A DNA stretch of 34,008 bases, taken from IMG/VR virus record IMGVR_UViG_3300046532_002823, positions 1 through 34,008 of that record; one strand, given 5' to 3'. Numbering within the stretch: the stretch's first letter is position 1; each line of letters begins with the position of its first letter. Shown here in pieces: positions 5,058 through 28,515 of the stretch. Made by a program: the position numbers and the translations under genes. The notes below the pieces were generated by a model, which was given only the letters and a program-made list of their open reading frames with translations, was not told where the DNA came from and ran no database searches. Source of the DNA: a virus.

Positions 5058-5342
5058 ATGAAACCGTTTAACAGGCACCTGTTGGTACAATTGATAGAAG
5101 AAGAGGAGCAAGAATCACAATCAGTGATTATCTTGCCCACAGATTATGAAAAACCCAAATCGCAATACCTTGTGGCGAAGGTTTTAAGTGTAGCGGAAGA
5201 CTGCAAGTTGACTGTAAATAAAGAAGAACTAATAATAGTTGAAGGAAGAATGTTACATACTATTGAAATTTACGAAAAAACATACTATTTAATACAAGAG
5301 AATTATATCTTTGGGAGATTAAATAGCGATGAAATTGAATAG
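5058..5342 (+). CDS. GroES-like co-chaperonin (probable)
   Basis: This 94-residue protein has the GroES outline: an N-terminal strand KPFNRHLLVQL, an acidic segment followed by a hydrophobic stretch (SVIILPTDY) where the GroES mobile loop region begins, a central KVLSV strand, and a C-terminal YYLIQENYIFGRL strand that ends the barrel in this family. The length is close to the usual 95-97 residues. Sequence identity to cellular GroES is low, as for T4 gp31, so the call rests on pattern and length. A GroEL gene about 22 kb downstream (26944) supports it. It has its own consensus promoter and a GGAGG site. Another small beta-barrel protein remains possible. Confidence 0.62.
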   Translation: MKPFNRHLLVQLIEEEEQESQSVIILPTDYEKPKSQYLVAKVLSVAEDCKLTVNKEELIIVEGRMLHTIEIYEKTYYLIQENYIFGRLNSDEIE

Positions 5343-6060
5343 AAGTACACTGAAAGAATTGATTGAAGAAGTCCTCACTAACCCAGAAGACTCAATGTTG
5401 CTGGAAAGCCCAGTAATTGAATCTACTGCTGGTTCTGTCGCTAGCCGAGTTAACCTACCTGATGGGTATGAAATTGGTGACACCGGACGAATTGCAAAAG
5501 GCTTCCTTTTTCTCTCTGCTGATCGTGGAGAGTTGGATCAAAAAGTAAATGATGCGAACTATATTAAATTAAAAGACATAGTTAAGGCTGCTGGTTTTCC
5601 CTTTATTAAAGTTGAAGGAGGCTGGGTAGAGAAAGATAAGACCACTGGTGTAGAAAGACCAGTAGTAGAAAGGTCTCTTATTATTTGGGATGAACCTCGT
5701 GGATCACATGCTGCTCCTCCCTCAATGCCGATTAAGGAATTAGGTATGCAATTATCACAACTGTATAATCAGGAAGAATTCGTATACGGATTCCTAACCA
5801 AGGACGATCACGGCGGTGCGCATAGAACAATCAAAGCTTACAATCCAGATGGAAGTGAAAGAGGTTGGTTAGATGCACATGAACTACATGTAGTCCCGGA
5901 GGACGCTGAGTTTTGGAGTCGTATTCGACACAAAGGACCGAAGACACAATTGAAAGAAGATACTATAGAGATTGAAGCGCCCAACTCTGTTATAGAAGCT
6001 ATGCGGAAAGCTCGCGCCCACAAGAACAAAAAAATTAAATTCATTCGTGGTAAGCGTTGA
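5329..6060 (+). CDS. unknown phage protein with N-terminal LIEEVL segment
   Basis: I do not recognise a firm function for this 243-residue protein. It opens with a basic amphipathic helix, LKELIEEVL, similar to the start of the 25865 protein (LDRLIEEVL). The middle (about 58-150) has FLFLSADRGEL, N-ANYIKL and a VERSLIIWDE strand. This arrangement reminds me weakly of the DUF3293 family. The C-terminus is strongly basic (KARAHKNKKIKFIRGKR), suggesting nucleic-acid contact. It overlaps the GroES-like gene by 14 bases and the ThyX gene by 4. Confidence 0.7.
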   Translation: MKLNRSTLKELIEEVLTNPEDSMLLESPVIESTAGSVASRVNLPDGYEIGDTGRIAKGFLFLSADRGELDQKVNDANYIKLKDIVKAAGFPFIKVEGGWVEKDKTTGVERPVVERSLIIWDEPRGSHAAPPSMPIKELGMQLSQLYNQEEFVYGFLTKDDHGGAHRTIKAYNPDGSERGWLDAHELHVVPEDAEFWSRIRHKGPKTQLKEDTIEIEAPNSVIEAMRKARAHKNKKIKFIRGKR

Positions 6061-8729: not shown

Positions 8730-9368
8730 ATGTCTTGGTATATCAAATTTAAAAAATATAGAAAACAGACAAAAGAATTGCTTTTCGTCAGGTCCGAATT
8801 AGAGTATATTGAAGAACTATTAAAAGAGACGCACCCGATATTCGAAGAATATTACCGTAAATTTTGTGTAGATAAGCGAATTGATTTAGATTTCTTATAT
8901 AAGGCCAACGATGAAAAAGTAGAAAATATCTTTAATGAGTCTGAAGAGAATAAAGATAAGCTGGTCCATAAACCCCGTAAGGAAAAAAGAAACCCAACGA
9001 AGGCTTTTGATAAGATATACCGAGCGATAGCCAAAGAGATCCACCCCGATAAACTATCCAAACTTTTGTCATTAAACGAAATTACGGAAAAAGAAGAGAT
9101 GTTTAAGAAAGCAACGGGGGCTATGTCCAAGGAAGATTGGGGCCACTTAATAGAAGTCGCCGATTGGCTTAATATAAAGCCCCGCTCTTTTGACGGGATT
9201 GGAGAACAAATAGGTCTAGAGCTTGGAAAACTAAAGAACCTAATTGCCAATAATAAAAGTATGTATAGCTGGGAGTTCGCTGAATGTGAGACCGAAGAAG
9301 AGAGAGATAGAATTGTTGAGAGATTTTTGTTTCACTTATATGGATATAAAGTTGACAAAGGCGACTAA
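8730..9368 (+). CDS. J-domain protein (DnaJ-like)
   Basis: This 212-residue protein has a J-domain core at about 91-135: YRAIAKEIHPDKLS, with the HPD tripeptide at 105-107 that stimulates Hsp70 ATPase, followed by a helix with EMFKKATGAMSKEDW. The first 85 residues are charged and helical. There are no G/F or zinc regions, so this is a class C (J-only) protein that probably directs host DnaK to a phage target. The promoter of the tmRNA gene lies across its last codons. With GroEL and a GroES-like protein it makes a set of phage chaperone genes. Confidence 0.8.
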   Translation: MSWYIKFKKYRKQTKELLFVRSELEYIEELLKETHPIFEEYYRKFCVDKRIDLDFLYKANDEKVENIFNESEENKDKLVHKPRKEKRNPTKAFDKIYRAIAKEIHPDKLSKLLSLNEITEKEEMFKKATGAMSKEDWGHLIEVADWLNIKPRSFDGIGEQIGLELGKLKNLIANNKSMYSWEFAECETEEERDRIVERFLFHLYGYKVDKGD

Positions 9369-9380
9369 CTATGTTATATT
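9352..9380 (+). promoter_or_regulatory. sigma70-like promoter of tmRNA
   Basis: TTGACA at 9352-9357 lies inside the end of the J-domain gene and TATATT at 9375-9380 just after it, with 17 bp between. Transcription would begin at about 9387-9390, at or next to the mature tmRNA 5' end. Confidence 0.9.
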
Positions 9381-9389
9381 ATAATGAAA

Positions 9390-9835
9390 GGGGGCGCAAT
9401 GGTTTCGACGGAGTAGAATCAAGGGGAGAGTGCAAGTAGGAAAGATACATCCTTTTTTTGCGGGTAACCGTAAACTTTATAAAAAGTTCAAAAAACTTTA
9501 ATTGCCAATAACAATTATCATTTCGAATCTATCCGCCTAGCGGCATAGTTCGGGTGGTTGTCTCAAACCATCTAACCAAGAGAGGCTTTAGCAGTTGGAA
9601 CTGCCAAGAAATAAAATGACAAAATGGATACCCTAATGGTAAATGGCCAATACTTTATACAAAGACTACGGTTAATGATTAAAATATTGAACATTATAGG
9701 TGGATTCTCAAGACTGCATAGAGAATGGGAAAATTTGTGGATATCCTGCTGGCTGGAGAAATAACCAGATATACTTGTGAATGACTCAAACTAAGACTAT
9801 TGCGGACGCGGGTTCGACTCCCGCCGCCTCCACCA
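9390..9835 (+). ncRNA. ssrA: tmRNA (transfer-messenger RNA), tag ANNNYHFESIRLAA
   Basis: The 446-base RNA has both halves of the tRNA-like domain. GGGGGCG (9390-9396) pairs with CGCCTCC (9825-9831), with one G-U pair, leaving an A discriminator and an encoded CCA at 9833-9835. The GGTTTCGACGG segment near the 5' end and the GCGGGTTCGACTCCCGC T-arm near the 3' end are standard. The resume codon GCC is at 9504 and the tag frame runs to TAG at 9546-9548, giving ANNNYHFESIRLAA. It starts with Ala and ends in the Leu-Ala-Ala degron typical of tmRNA tags. tmRNA frees stalled ribosomes and marks the product for ClpXP-type proteolysis. It is longer than the 363-base E. coli RNA. Confidence 0.96.
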
Positions 9836-9849
9836 TTTAAGGAAAGAAA

Positions 9850-10269
9850 ATGAAAGAAGAGCTACAAAGCAAACTATTCGAAAAATATCCCAAGATCTTC
9901 AGACAAAAGGATCTTCCCATGCAGCAGACAGCAATGTGTTGGGGAATAGCCTGCGGAGATGGATGGTATAATATTATTGATACTTTATGTGGTCAAATTC
10001 AAAATCACCTTGAGCATAATATGAAAGAGAACGACGGCACCATTGTTATCGAAGCGACACAAGTGAAAGAAAAGTATGGTGGTCTTCGATTTTATCACAC
10101 CGGCGGCGATGATTTTATTCGAGGATTGTGCTGGATGGCAGAAGGTCTTTCGTGCAGTACATGTGAAGAATGCGGATCACCGGGCACTCAGAATGATAAA
10201 GGTTGGATAAGCACGTTGTGTGATCCGTGTAGGAAAAATATTATGGAGGCTAACAGTAAAGACAAATGA
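9850..10269 (+). CDS. conserved phage protein with C-terminal Cys cluster
   Basis: This 139-residue protein belongs to a family I recognise from many phages but for which I know no function. Motifs are QTAMCWGIACGDGWYNIID near 26-44 and EATQVKEKYGGLRFY near 69-83. The C-terminus has CSTCEECGSPG and TLCDPC, the spacing of a zinc ribbon. It begins 14 bases after the tmRNA CCA end with AAGGAAAG as ribosome binding site, so it is probably read from the tmRNA promoter. It overlaps iscA by 4 bases. Confidence 0.82.
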   Translation: MKEELQSKLFEKYPKIFRQKDLPMQQTAMCWGIACGDGWYNIIDTLCGQIQNHLEHNMKENDGTIVIEATQVKEKYGGLRFYHTGGDDFIRGLCWMAEGLSCSTCEECGSPGTQNDKGWISTLCDPCRKNIMEANSKDK

Positions 10270-10595
10270 ATATTATATTAACTCCAGAGGCTATTGTTAA
10301 TATTAAAAATCTTCAGAAAGAATATAATGCTGTAGGGAAAGGGTTGAGATTTGGGCTTTCCGAAAAGGGATGCTCGGGATATAAGTATATTTTAGAATTT
10401 GAAGATAAACCGATGGCGGATGACATGGTTTTAAAATTTGACGAAATAGTTATCTATGTAAGCCGCTCTCATTTTGAAAAGCTTAAGGGATCTATAATTG
10501 GTTGGAAGGATACTTTGATGGAATCTGGATTTGATATTGACAACCCACAAGCAAGACAACCATGCGGTTGTGGCGAGAGCATAAACTTTATTTAG
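10266..10595 (+). CDS. A-type iron-sulfur carrier protein (IscA/ErpA/SufA family)
   Basis: This 109-residue protein has the three conserved cysteines of the family: C36 in EKGCSGYKY, and C100 and C102 in PCGCGESI near the end. The length matches the usual 105-120 residues. A-type carriers bind Fe or Fe-S clusters and hand them to apo-proteins in the cytosol. It sits between a Cys-cluster protein and an IscU-type scaffold, with a 4-base overlap upstream, so both Fe-S proteins should be made together. No cysteine desulfurase (IscS) is present; sulfur would come from the host enzyme. Confidence 0.92.
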   Translation: MNIILTPEAIVNIKNLQKEYNAVGKGLRFGLSEKGCSGYKYILEFEDKPMADDMVLKFDEIVIYVSRSHFEKLKGSIIGWKDTLMESGFDIDNPQARQPCGCGESINFI

Positions 10596-10603
10596 GAGAT
10601 AAA

Positions 10604-10987
10604 ATGTATAGTAAAAAAGTAATTAAACACTTCGAAGACCCACAAAATGTGGGCTCTATGGATACAAGCGATCCCTCTGTTGGAACGGGAATTGTGGGTG
10701 CCCCTGCATGTGGGGATGTGATGAAACTTCAACTAAAGATCAGCGATGATGGAATTATTGAAGATGCCAAATTCAAGACATTTGGTTGTGGTTCTGCCAT
10801 TGCTTCCAGTTCTTATGTCACAACGTTAATAAAAGGCAGAACAATTGAAGAAGCAAAAGAAGTTAGAAATATAGACATAGCAGCAGAATTAGAGTTGCCA
10901 CCAGTAAAAATACATTGTTCAGTGCTAGCCGAAGACGCTATCAAGGCAGCAATTAGAGATTATCAAAACAAAAGAACCAAGGAGTAA
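10604..10987 (+). CDS. IscU/NifU-type Fe-S cluster scaffold
   Basis: This 127-residue protein has the scaffold set C36 (APACGDV), D38, C62 (FGCGSAIASSS) and C105 (KIHCSVLAEDAI). It also has the LPPVK motif (98-102), which in IscU is the binding site for the Hsp70 HscA. IscU assembles 2Fe-2S clusters with IscS and passes them on with chaperone help. The ATG at 10604 is chosen because AGGAGA precedes it and the N-terminus matches IscU; an in-frame upstream ATG at 10562 would lie inside iscA. The retained LPPVK suggests it can use the host Hsp70 or HscA system. Confidence 0.93.
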   Translation: MYSKKVIKHFEDPQNVGSMDTSDPSVGTGIVGAPACGDVMKLQLKISDDGIIEDAKFKTFGCGSAIASSSYVTTLIKGRTIEEAKEVRNIDIAAELELPPVKIHCSVLAEDAIKAAIRDYQNKRTKE

Positions 10988-20948: not shown

Positions 20949-21719
20949 ATGTCAATGACTCACAGAGAGATTAGTGCATCAGGTATAGCCAACGAAAGAT
21001 GGGTAGCTTCCTTATTAACACAGGGTAGTTCTTTTACTCATCTTCCATTGGCTCGCTTTTTTGGCTTTAATTTCAACAAAGACTTCTCCTTTAACGCATT
21101 TAAGACAGGAGGAGTCGGGAAGACTGATGTTGTTATGCAAATATTCCATAGCCGTTATGGTGTTAGCCCTTCTCACATTAATATATCCTGTAAAAAACTG
21201 AAAACAGAGAACCATAACGGCTTTGGCCATATTCATAAAACAACTATAGCTTCTTATAGAAGGAAGTGGGAGTTTGATGACATAATCGAAAGGTGTTTAA
21301 ATGTATATTGTGGCAATATAATAGTTGAGGGACACAAGGGACTTTATTTTGACCATAGATACTTCCACCCATATCATGAATATATTAAATACTTTTTTCG
21401 TAACAACTTCGATCAAATCTTCAGTGATATATTCAAAGGCCGTGGAACCAGCAAGCCGCAGTGGTTTGCAGTAACCGCAGATACTGGGGTGAGTAAGCTA
21501 CTATTCCTCGCACCAATCGACGAAGTGATAGAATATATGAAAGGAGACCGAAGGGTCGAGTTTGGTAAGGGGGCGTTTAATCAGAACCTATGTCTTGGCA
21601 ATGTTACTATGTACTCAAAGAGAACGACAGGACAACTACAATTCAAGACAAACTACAAACCAATGCTTAAGAAATTAAATCATAAATTCCGTATCTTTAC
21701 ATTTGACACAGAAGATTAG
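20949..21719 (+). CDS. restriction-endonuclease-like protein (PD-(D/E)XK fold, HinP1I/MspI-like site)
   Basis: In this 256-residue protein, residues 53-105 read TGGVGKTDVVMQIF, then INISCKKL, then NGFGHIHKTTIASY. This matches a restriction nuclease core in which a Thr-Asp is followed by a strand and S-x-K (D60, S80, K82). As I recall, HinP1I has Ser-Asp-X18-Gln-x-Lys and MspI Thr-Asp-X17-Asn-x-Lys, so this variant fits that group. The second half has YFFRNNFDQIF and KGRGTSKPQWF, also typical. No methyltransferase lies beside it, so it may cut host DNA while phage DNA is protected some other way. There is no clear ribosome binding site. The family call is probable, not certain. Confidence 0.6.
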   Translation: MSMTHREISASGIANERWVASLLTQGSSFTHLPLARFFGFNFNKDFSFNAFKTGGVGKTDVVMQIFHSRYGVSPSHINISCKKLKTENHNGFGHIHKTTIASYRRKWEFDDIIERCLNVYCGNIIVEGHKGLYFDHRYFHPYHEYIKYFFRNNFDQIFSDIFKGRGTSKPQWFAVTADTGVSKLLFLAPIDEVIEYMKGDRRVEFGKGAFNQNLCLGNVTMYSKRTTGQLQFKTNYKPMLKKLNHKFRIFTFDTED

Positions 21720-24333: not shown

Positions 24334-24969
24334 ATGCCTAGAAAAACTGATAAACCGAAAGAAACAGAAGAACCCGAAGAAGGCGCTTTGGCATTAGCTG
24401 AAGCTATGACTGCAATGATAGAGCCAACTCCCGACCTTCGAACAATGATGTTATACGGGGAGGTAGAGGAAGAGAAGATACAAGAGTTAATTGTTGCCCT
24501 TCTTATAATGACCGAAGGGGCAACTGCTAAAGCGTATAATGAAGATGGAAAACTAAACCCGATTAGATTCTTTATATCCACTTATGGTGGCGCGGCAGAC
24601 GATATGTTCGCTCTATATGATATTATACACCTAGCAAAGCGTTCGTGTGAAATACATACGGTTGGTATCGGTAAAGTTATGTCGGCTGGTGTGTTGTTAT
24701 TGGCGTCTGGCACGAAAGGAAAAAGATTCATTAGCAAAAATTGTCGGATCATGATACATTCTGTGCAAGCTGGTGCTGGTGGCGGGATGCATGATCTTGA
24801 GAATGAGATGAAAGCTATCAAGAACTTACAGGATGTTTATATAAATTCTCTTGTAGTTGAAACTTGTCTGACGAAAAGACAATTAACTAAAATTCTTGAT
24901 CGTAAAGTAAATGTCTATTTGACAGCAGAAGAAGCCATTGAATACGGCATTGCTGATGAAATTCTATAG
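24334..24969 (+). CDS. ClpP-like serine protease
   Basis: This 211-residue protein has the ClpP fold marks: FFISTYGGAADD (79-90), KVMSAGVLLLASG with nucleophile S117, RIMIHSVQ with H142, and YLTAEEAIEYGIADEIL at the end. The triad Asp position, by alignment with the usual DRFLSA, falls on N193. D189 is four residues earlier, so the third member is altered or shifted. The first 33 residues are a charged extension absent from cellular ClpP. Phage ClpP-like proteins often serve as head maturation proteases, and the acidic scaffold-like gene nearby supports that. A role in degrading tmRNA-tagged proteins is an alternative. Confidence 0.85.
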   Translation: MPRKTDKPKETEEPEEGALALAEAMTAMIEPTPDLRTMMLYGEVEEEKIQELIVALLIMTEGATAKAYNEDGKLNPIRFFISTYGGAADDMFALYDIIHLAKRSCEIHTVGIGKVMSAGVLLLASGTKGKRFISKNCRIMIHSVQAGAGGGMHDLENEMKAIKNLQDVYINSLVVETCLTKRQLTKILDRKVNVYLTAEEAIEYGIADEIL

Positions 24970-26893: not shown

Positions 26894-26922
26894 TTGACAT
26901 AACTCACAGAATGTGTTATATT
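26894..26922 (+). promoter_or_regulatory. sigma70-like promoter of groEL
   Basis: TTGACA at 26894-26899 and TATATT at 26917-26922, spacer 17 bp. Transcription would begin near 26929, leaving a leader of about 15 bases with the GGAGGA site. Confidence 0.9.
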
Positions 26923-26943
26923 GTATATATGAATGGAGGATTT

Positions 26944-28515
26944 GTGAATAAACACTATGAAAACGGACTCTCATTGAGTCAAAAATTATTGAAGGGAGTG
27001 GATGTACTGGCAGATAATGTTGGCTCGACTCTCGGTCCGAAAGGGCGAAACGTGATTCTATATCACAAAGACCAGAACGTCCCTGTTATTACCAAAGACG
27101 GTGTGACAGTTGCACAGTTTATTGAACTGGAAGACCCAATCGAGAACGTGGGGGCACAAATTGTAAAGCAAGCTGCTGAACAAACAGCTAGCAAAGCAGG
27201 TGATGGGACAACCACATCGACTGTGTTAGCGAGAGCAATCATCCAAGGAGCCCAAAAGTACCTTGCTGCTGGAGCTTCTCCTATAGAGTTGAAGCGTGGC
27301 ATGGATATTGCATGTAGTATAATTGTTAAGAACCTTGAAGCCCTTGCTCAACCCGTGAGATCAAAGAAAGATATAGAACATATTGCAACTATCTCTGCTA
27401 ACAACGATATATCAATTGGCACACTTATTGCAGAGGCTGTTGATTCTGTTGGTAAAGATGGTGCGGTAATTATTGAGGAGGCTAATTCGTTAGAGACTTC
27501 GCTTGATTTGATTGAGGGTTTCCGATTCGATTCTGGCTATTGCGCCACTGCTTTCATTAACAACGAGAGGTCTGGGACGGTTGAATATGACAATCCGTTG
27601 ATACTTGTCGCTGACGATAAGGTTGAATATGTTGAACAGATACTTCCCTCACTTGAATTGGCTGCGAGGGAGACAAGACCATTGGTCATCATAGCTAACG
27701 AGGTCGTAGAGCAAGCCCTCGCTGCCTTAATTATGAACACCAAACGCGGTTCATTAAAGGTATGTGCCGTCAAAGCTCCAAGGTATGGGGAAGAACGCAG
27801 GAAGTTTATGAGGGATATATGTCTCTCAACCGGAGCAACGTATATTACCAGAGAAGATGGAGTGCAGATGAAAGATGTTCGTCTCCCACACTTCGGACAG
27901 TCAAAGAAGATTAGCATATCCAAAGGACTCACTACGATCGTCGGTGGTCGCGGGAGTCAAGAAAGAATTGATGAACAGATTGAGAGCCTAAAGATTGAAA
28001 TCCAACAGACAGAAAGCCTAAAAGAGTGTGAAAGGATACAAGAAAGGATCACACGTTTAGCCTCTGGCATTGGTGTAATTAGAGTAGGAGCAGCAACTGA
28101 AATAGAAATGATTGAGAAGAAGCACCGAGTAGAAGATGCTCTTGAGGCAGTCAGATCAGCGCAAGAACAAGGCGTTGTTGTTGGTGGTGGTTCTGCGCTC
28201 TTACATGCCTCTGTTGGGCACTTTCTCTCCACAGATAGACAAGACCAAGAGCTTGGCTCTAAGGTCGTTTTTGAGGCGGTTACTGCGCCATTAAGACAGA
28301 TGTGTTTGAACGCAGGTGAATCGCCTGATATAATTGTCAGGTTAGTCTCAGAAAGTTTGCCTAATCAAGCGTATGACTTCGTTGAACGAGATGTGGTTGA
28401 TGCCATTGAGATGGGGTTACTCGACCCCGTTAAGGTAACAATCAGTGCATTAACTAATGCTGTGTCCGTTGCCTCAATTTTGATAACAACAAACTACGCC
28501 ATTGTTAAGGACTAG
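26944..28515 (+). CDS. groL: chaperonin GroEL (Hsp60)
   Basis: This 523-residue protein has VGSTLGPKGRNV (26-37), DGTTTSTVLAR (87-97, same numbering as E. coli), an apical domain, GAATEIEMIEKKHRVEDAL with the ATPase Asp, and GVVVGGGSALLHA. The family forms a 14-subunit ring that folds proteins with GroES. The C-terminal GGM tail of most bacterial GroEL is missing. The start is GTG at 26944, because GGAGGA lies just before it. An upstream in-frame ATG at 26911 is inside the promoter. Phage GroEL genes are uncommon; the GroES-like gene at 5058 may be its partner. Confidence 0.97.
   Translation: MNKHYENGLSLSQKLLKGVDVLADNVGSTLGPKGRNVILYHKDQNVPVITKDGVTVAQFIELEDPIENVGAQIVKQAAEQTASKAGDGTTTSTVLARAIIQGAQKYLAAGASPIELKRGMDIACSIIVKNLEALAQPVRSKKDIEHIATISANNDISIGTLIAEAVDSVGKDGAVIIEEANSLETSLDLIEGFRFDSGYCATAFINNERSGTVEYDNPLILVADDKVEYVEQILPSLELAARETRPLVIIANEVVEQALAALIMNTKRGSLKVCAVKAPRYGEERRKFMRDICLSTGATYITREDGVQMKDVRLPHFGQSKKISISKGLTTIVGGRGSQERIDEQIESLKIEIQQTESLKECERIQERITRLASGIGVIRVGAATEIEMIEKKHRVEDALEAVRSAQEQGVVVGGGSALLHASVGHFLSTDRQDQELGSKVVFEAVTAPLRQMCLNAGESPDIIVRLVSESLPNQAYDFVERDVVDAIEMGLLDPVKVTISALTNAVSVASILITTNYAIVKD

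Follow-up and report, generated by a model that had tools for sequence, protein, structure and literature searches.

Phages with a tmRNA of their own have been described several times. Mycobacteriophage Bxz1 and Bacillus phage G carry one (PMC4131195), as does a prophage of M. abscessus (PMC9934374), and tmRNAs are present in many Streptomyces phages. The tags of the latter (for example in Blueeyedbeauty and LukeCage; see also PMC4131195) end in LAA like the tag described here, but otherwise differ from it (ANSNVASAYALAA, ANSKNASAYALAA and others, compared with ANNNYHFESIRLAA), and blastn detects similarity between the RNAs in the T-arm only. Among marine phages, Melnitz and pelagiphages encode a tmRNA, which, unlike ours, is of the permuted two-piece type and in Melnitz is associated with a glutamine riboswitch (PMC9004378). 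Mycobacteriophage DS6A has a TLD-only RNA (PMC4131195), which has no mRNA-like domain. In huge phages, tmRNA is known and SmpB is also reported (Al-Shayeb 2020, PMC7162821).

Here, we describe a tmRNA gene in IMG/VR record IMGVR_UViG_3300046532_002823, a virus contig of 34,008 bases that was analyzed as a whole and is referred to as the window. The RNA resembles the one-piece bacterial tmRNA of Rfam RF00023 in its alanine tRNA-like domain, H2, pseudoknot (PK) regions, tag frame, and LAA end, and differs from it by a longer variable domain and an insertion in PK1. The earlier note on this DNA had called phage tmRNAs uncommon. This holds for isolates, where 402 of 18,146 phage genomes (about 2.3%) carry one (PMC9004378), but not for environmental virus contigs, in which they are easily found. 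As phage tmRNAs themselves are already known, the novelty is modest; the new part is a viral tmRNA family with a common tag. The open-access literature we searched contains no description of this tag family, and blastn searches with the tmRNA body of two family members gave no match in isolated phages.

A one-piece tmRNA gene in the window

ARAGORN identifies a single tmRNA in the window, at 9390-9835(+), with the tag ANNNYHFESIRLAA. The predicted form is unpermuted, and the molecule does not qualify as a permuted two-piece tmRNA. Model positions 1-374 of RF00023 align end to end with 93 bits (E = 3.4e-35), about twice the gathering cutoff of 47; bacterial tmRNAs of Neomarinimicrobiota reach up to 206 bits. 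These results agree exactly with the earlier note on coordinates, strand, tag, acceptor stem, T-arm, and CCA; the note had called for such a covariance-model search and for the location of a G-U pair in the acceptor stem. This pair is G9392·U9829, the alanine wobble G3·U70. It is accompanied by A73 (A9832) and an encoded CCA (9833-9835), which together with the T-arm make up the tRNA-like domain of a tmRNA. The tag frame has the expected alanine resume codon (GCC at 9504), U9499 at -5, A9500 at -4, an LAA end, and a TAG stop. In E. coli tmRNA, certain U85 and A86 mutations lead to the wrong frame (PMC2481249).

Table 1 Features of the tmRNA locus and of two protein-coding genes in the window.
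Feature	Position	Strand	Evidence or remark
Upstream ORF	8730..9368	+	HPD motif, weak DnaJ-like match; homologue known in L081
Promoter-like site, TTGACA-N17-TATATT, extended -10 TG	9352..9380	+	11/12 matches; overlaps end of ORF 8730-9368
tmRNA gene (ssrA), one-piece, 446 nt	9390..9835	+	ARAGORN, Rfam RF00023, family covariation
Acceptor stem, 5' strand, GGGGGCG	9390..9396	+	Pairs with 9825-9831; G3 = 9392
H2 outer helix, 5' strand	9412..9416	+	Pairs with 9797-9801
H2 inner helix, 5' strand	9428..9436	+	Pairs with 9774-9778 and 9784-9787
PK1	9438..9489	+	Stem 1 9438-9441/9450-9453, stem 2 9444-9448/9486-9489; helices 5-8
PK1 loop 3 insertion, ~27 nt	9455..9481	+	None in sampled relatives; small hairpin possible
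Tag reading frame GCC...TAG, ANNNYHFESIRLAA	9504..9548	+	ARAGORN, codon analysis
PK2	9553..9586	+	Stem 1 9553-9559/9566-9572, stem 2 9560-9564/9582-9586; helices 9 and 10
PK3 stem 1 hairpin	9591..9604	+	Helix 11; only stem 1 drawn
Enlarged variable domain between PK3 and PK4	9612..9703	+	Shorter form in L241, L206, L170, and others
PK4	9704..9740	+	Stem 1 9704-9709/9721-9726, stem 2 9714-9718/9736-9740; helices 12 and 13
T-arm GCGGG TTCGACT CCCGC, acceptor 3' strand, and CCA	9808..9835	+	RF00023, covariation
ClpP-like S14 protease	24334..24969	+	Pfam ClpP 2.4e-31; possible partner of tag

The pseudoknot pairings were drawn by hand on the window and comprise both stems of PK1, PK2, and PK4, and stem 1 of PK3; the helix columns of PK4 were set on other family members. 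H2 and PK1 lie upstream of the tag, as in other tmRNAs, with PK1 carrying the loop-3 insertion. Both stems of PK2 and PK4 are paired in the window and covary in the family; of PK3, stem 1 was assigned. The earlier note had regarded a covariance model missing the pseudoknots as evidence against a tmRNA; the pairings can be drawn and the match runs end to end, so this is not what we find.

Upstream of the gene lies a promoter-like site with the hexamers TTGACA (9352-9357) and TATATT (9375-9380), separated by a 17-nt spacer and ending 9 nt before the tmRNA. The promoter of the earlier note is borne out as a sequence match, near consensus at 11 of 12 positions, and may be strong. Identical hexamers with the same spacing occur upstream of the relatives L081 and L192. 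We also considered a promoter conserved throughout the family and did not find one: scores of at least 10 are reached by 7.5% of 106 relatives and by 2.4% of shuffles, so a full sigma-70-like promoter is no family hallmark.

A viral tag family nearly absent from bacteria

A degenerate DNA pattern of the tag matched at least 119 IMG/VR stretches, and among the matches listed about 100 viral loci are tmRNAs with an ANNN-type tag. The tag ANNNx(H/N)F(E/D)...LAA is common to more than 100 IMG/VR stretches. To avoid the bias of a tag-based search, a second pattern was derived from the 3' part of the RNA only. The 93 tags of this set pool all loci matching the 3' pattern, 40 of which were found by it alone. 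ANNN begins 84 of them, 80 fit ANNNx(H/Y/N)(F/Y)(E/D/Q), and 88 end in LAA. An exact pattern of the tmRNA 5' part had no match in IMG/VR viral contigs. The ANNN-tag tmRNA belongs to a large group of viruses that are uncultured and largely marine. Two related virus tmRNAs (L094 and L095) have tags of 23-24 residues ending in MAFVGxDYAVAA.

A scan of 84,980 species of bacteria and archaea for the tag pattern gave 34 matching stretches, only two of them tmRNAs; it used the H/Y form of the tag and would miss a bacterial N-form. Both ANNN-tag tmRNA contigs in MAG bins look viral, because they share genes with the viral loci. One is binned with a Neomarinimicrobiota MAG that has its own tmRNA with the tag ADYGYAAAA. 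An identification of the host from this bin was considered and dropped: the MAG has a tmRNA of its own, the ANNN-tag contig is viral, and binning alone names no host. In 28 Neomarinimicrobiota genomes a tag could be read; it is 8 to 12 residues long and in no case similar to the viral one. A MAG of this phylum contains a 197-kb contig (L489; G153 contig C208) with a second tmRNA, whose tag is DESVHMLQAA; this contig is possibly a huge phage. On a viral contig in a Flavobacteriales MAG, an ORF with the tubulin/FtsZ-like motif GGGGGTGS (L286:823-2040(-)) is located near the tmRNA.

Selection on the RNA and on the tag

In an alignment of 45 family members, the 62 drawn pairs are 93.1% paired. Changes on both sides are seen in 42 of the 62 pairs, compared to 27.2 in shuffles and at most 23 when the structure is slid along the alignment. 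The covariation score is 0.363, compared to 0.133 for shuffled and at most 0.087 for slid alignments. As the structure was drawn on alignment members, it is somewhat favoured in these comparisons. In stem 2 of PK2, all seven pairs change on both sides across the family. Only rows with proper ends and the G·U pair had been admitted to the alignment, which partly explains why this pair is present in 45/45 rows; before filtering, it is found in 82/95, and several of the remaining rows have shifted ARAGORN ends. Family covariation, together with a folding z-score of -3.07, excludes a chance origin of the tmRNA match.

The tag shows a pattern of its own. Across the 83 unique ANNN tags of the 3'-pattern set, the first four and the last two codons vary at third positions only. 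The first four codons were selected as ANNN, while the last two alanines lie outside that selection; the leucine ahead of them is kept in 80 of the 83. Since codon positions 1 and 2 are invariant and position 3 varies, the tag is evidently translated. Upstream of the resume codon, A(-4) is present in 106/106 and U(-5) in 103/106 relatives. Judged by these substitution patterns, the RNA and the tag are under strong selection across the viral family.

Predicted function and fate of tagged proteins

The window RNA is very probably a functional phage tmRNA acting in trans-translation. The earlier note had proposed a complete tmRNA that should work, and the tRNA-like domain, H2, pseudoknot pairings, tag frame, and covariation all argue for it. 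The RNA would be transcribed from its own promoter in the infected cell, trimmed by the RNase P and 3' nucleases of the host, and charged by host AlaRS. Host SmpB and EF-Tu would then bring it to ribosomes stuck on broken mRNAs, where the ribosome would shift to the GCC codon, append ANNNYHFESIRLAA, and be freed. A search of 46 virus records of the family, the majority of them fragments, did not turn up SmpB, and host SmpB is therefore the likely partner; huge phages differ in that SmpB is reported for them, while both groups carry ribosome-rescue parts. For this, the RNA would have to be compatible with the SmpB and AlaRS of the host.

A C-terminal LAA is the signal read by ClpX. The LAA end thus predicts delivery of the tagged fragment to ClpXP, which would consist of host ClpX and a ClpP of host or perhaps phage origin. 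What the virus gains may be free ribosomes during high mRNA turnover, and it is plausible, as the earlier note proposed, that the tmRNA helps when phage mRNAs are cut. These viruses would have long kept their own RNA instead of depending on that of the host alone. Even if the tag acts like that of the host, ribosome rescue would still be worth a gene of its own to a virus group that is common and largely marine.

A different fate of the tagged products is an unlikely alternative, though one with several points in its favor. Here, the segment ANNNx(H/N)F(E/D) would bind a phage or host adaptor or work with phage ClpP, so that tagging would serve an end unlike that of the host. The N-terminal half of the tag is conserved in diverged viruses, including loci collected through the 3' end of the RNA, and it is unlike the bacterial tags examined, such as those of Neomarinimicrobiota; conservation of this half may, however, have ribosome- or adaptor-related reasons in any lineage. 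ClpP-like genes are found in 12/13 family records with a length of at least 140 kb, but also in 5/19 records that served as comparison and yielded no ANNN-family tmRNA. The latter include Microcystis phage Mel-JY01, where a search with RF00023 returned a 17-nt T-arm match only and no tmRNA was detected. We therefore dropped a link between tmRNA and ClpP, suggestive in the long records, since almost all the records are fragments. The ClpP-like protein of the window matches ClpP in the PDB with aligned Ser and His motifs, but among the PHROGs it matches a head maturation protease best. The earlier note's suggestion that the middle of the tag redirects products to another protease is not supported: LAA is kept, no alternative protease or adaptor was tied to the tag, and phage ClpP is also present in the relative without a detected tmRNA. 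That this is a virus-only lineage of tmRNA in which a specific adaptor or the ClpP of the virus receives the tagged protein, creating a degradation route run by the virus and not by the host, seems slightly less probable still. If the tag did act unlike the host tag, this would amount to a phage takeover of protein quality control. A role of phage tmRNA beyond that of the host copy is testable in this family, as the viral tag is nearly absent from bacteria and selection is visible at the codon level.

The window copy and its insertions

With 446 nt, the window tmRNA is the longest sampled, the others ranging from 322 to 422 nt. Its PK1 insertion is private to this copy, and PK1 stem 2 comprises only 4 bp; the window copy could therefore be weakened. 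A decaying or inactive copy within a working family, disabled by its PK1 insertion and long variable domain, is nevertheless quite improbable. Every family-defined helix is still paired in the window, and neither the acceptor stem nor the resume codon, tag, or stop is damaged. Furthermore, the promoter-like site is near consensus, and large insertions in the downstream domain occur in other members too.

We regard it as very unlikely that the RNA inhibits host trans-translation or acts as a decoy by titrating SmpB. It would then be comparable to the TLD-only RNA of DS6A; a molecule similar to that RNA is an inhibitor of tmRNA (PMC4131195). The window RNA, however, has a complete mRNA-like half, whose codons are under selection at the amino-acid level and would not be needed by a decoy. 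Host ssrA can be used as a prophage integration site, and gene exchange of this type was proposed for Melnitz (PMC9004378). Yet it is extremely improbable that the gene is a remnant attachment site or a copy of host ssrA acquired by imprecise excision, as position and family are shared by diverged viruses, bacterial genomes almost lack the tag pattern, and the scanned ORFs of the window include no recognised integrase.

Gene neighborhood and age of the tmRNA

The neighboring genes of the family allow the age of the tmRNA to be judged. Eight window genes have homologues in L081 that precede the tmRNA there in unchanged order, and the homologue of ORF 8730-9368, at 27% identity, is located 63 nt upstream of it. 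The tmRNAs of L153, L193, and L214 lie 1.5 to 2 kb downstream of a homologue of this ORF. L016 has an equivalent gene block in which no tmRNA was detected, so the tmRNA is dispensable. Judged by the synteny with L081 at such low identity and the block of L016, the tmRNA has been kept for long but is losable. ORF 8730-9368 itself matches a DnaJ domain weakly (E 0.013, below cutoff) and has a likewise weak match to the DnaD-like helicase loader phrog_6493; used as a scan query, it yielded no confirmed relatives.

The window encodes an exonuclease, a DnaB-like helicase, and NrdJ in succession. Mel-JY01 has the same order, with an ORF annotated as DNA polymerase I, a gp41 helicase, and an NrdJ with 64% identity to that of the window. 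Just past the tmRNA region, overlapping genes for IscA-like and IscU-like (NifU_N) iron-sulphur scaffold proteins occupy 10266-10987. GroES-like (5058-5342) and GroEL-like (26911-28515) genes form, together with ClpP, a protein quality-control set beside the tmRNA in one virus. Finally, the window contains a weak match to S-adenosylmethionine lyase at 5329-6060 (E 0.0042, below cutoff) and, at 20949-21719, a virus-borne R.HinP1I-like restriction endonuclease (Pfam 3.4e-13).
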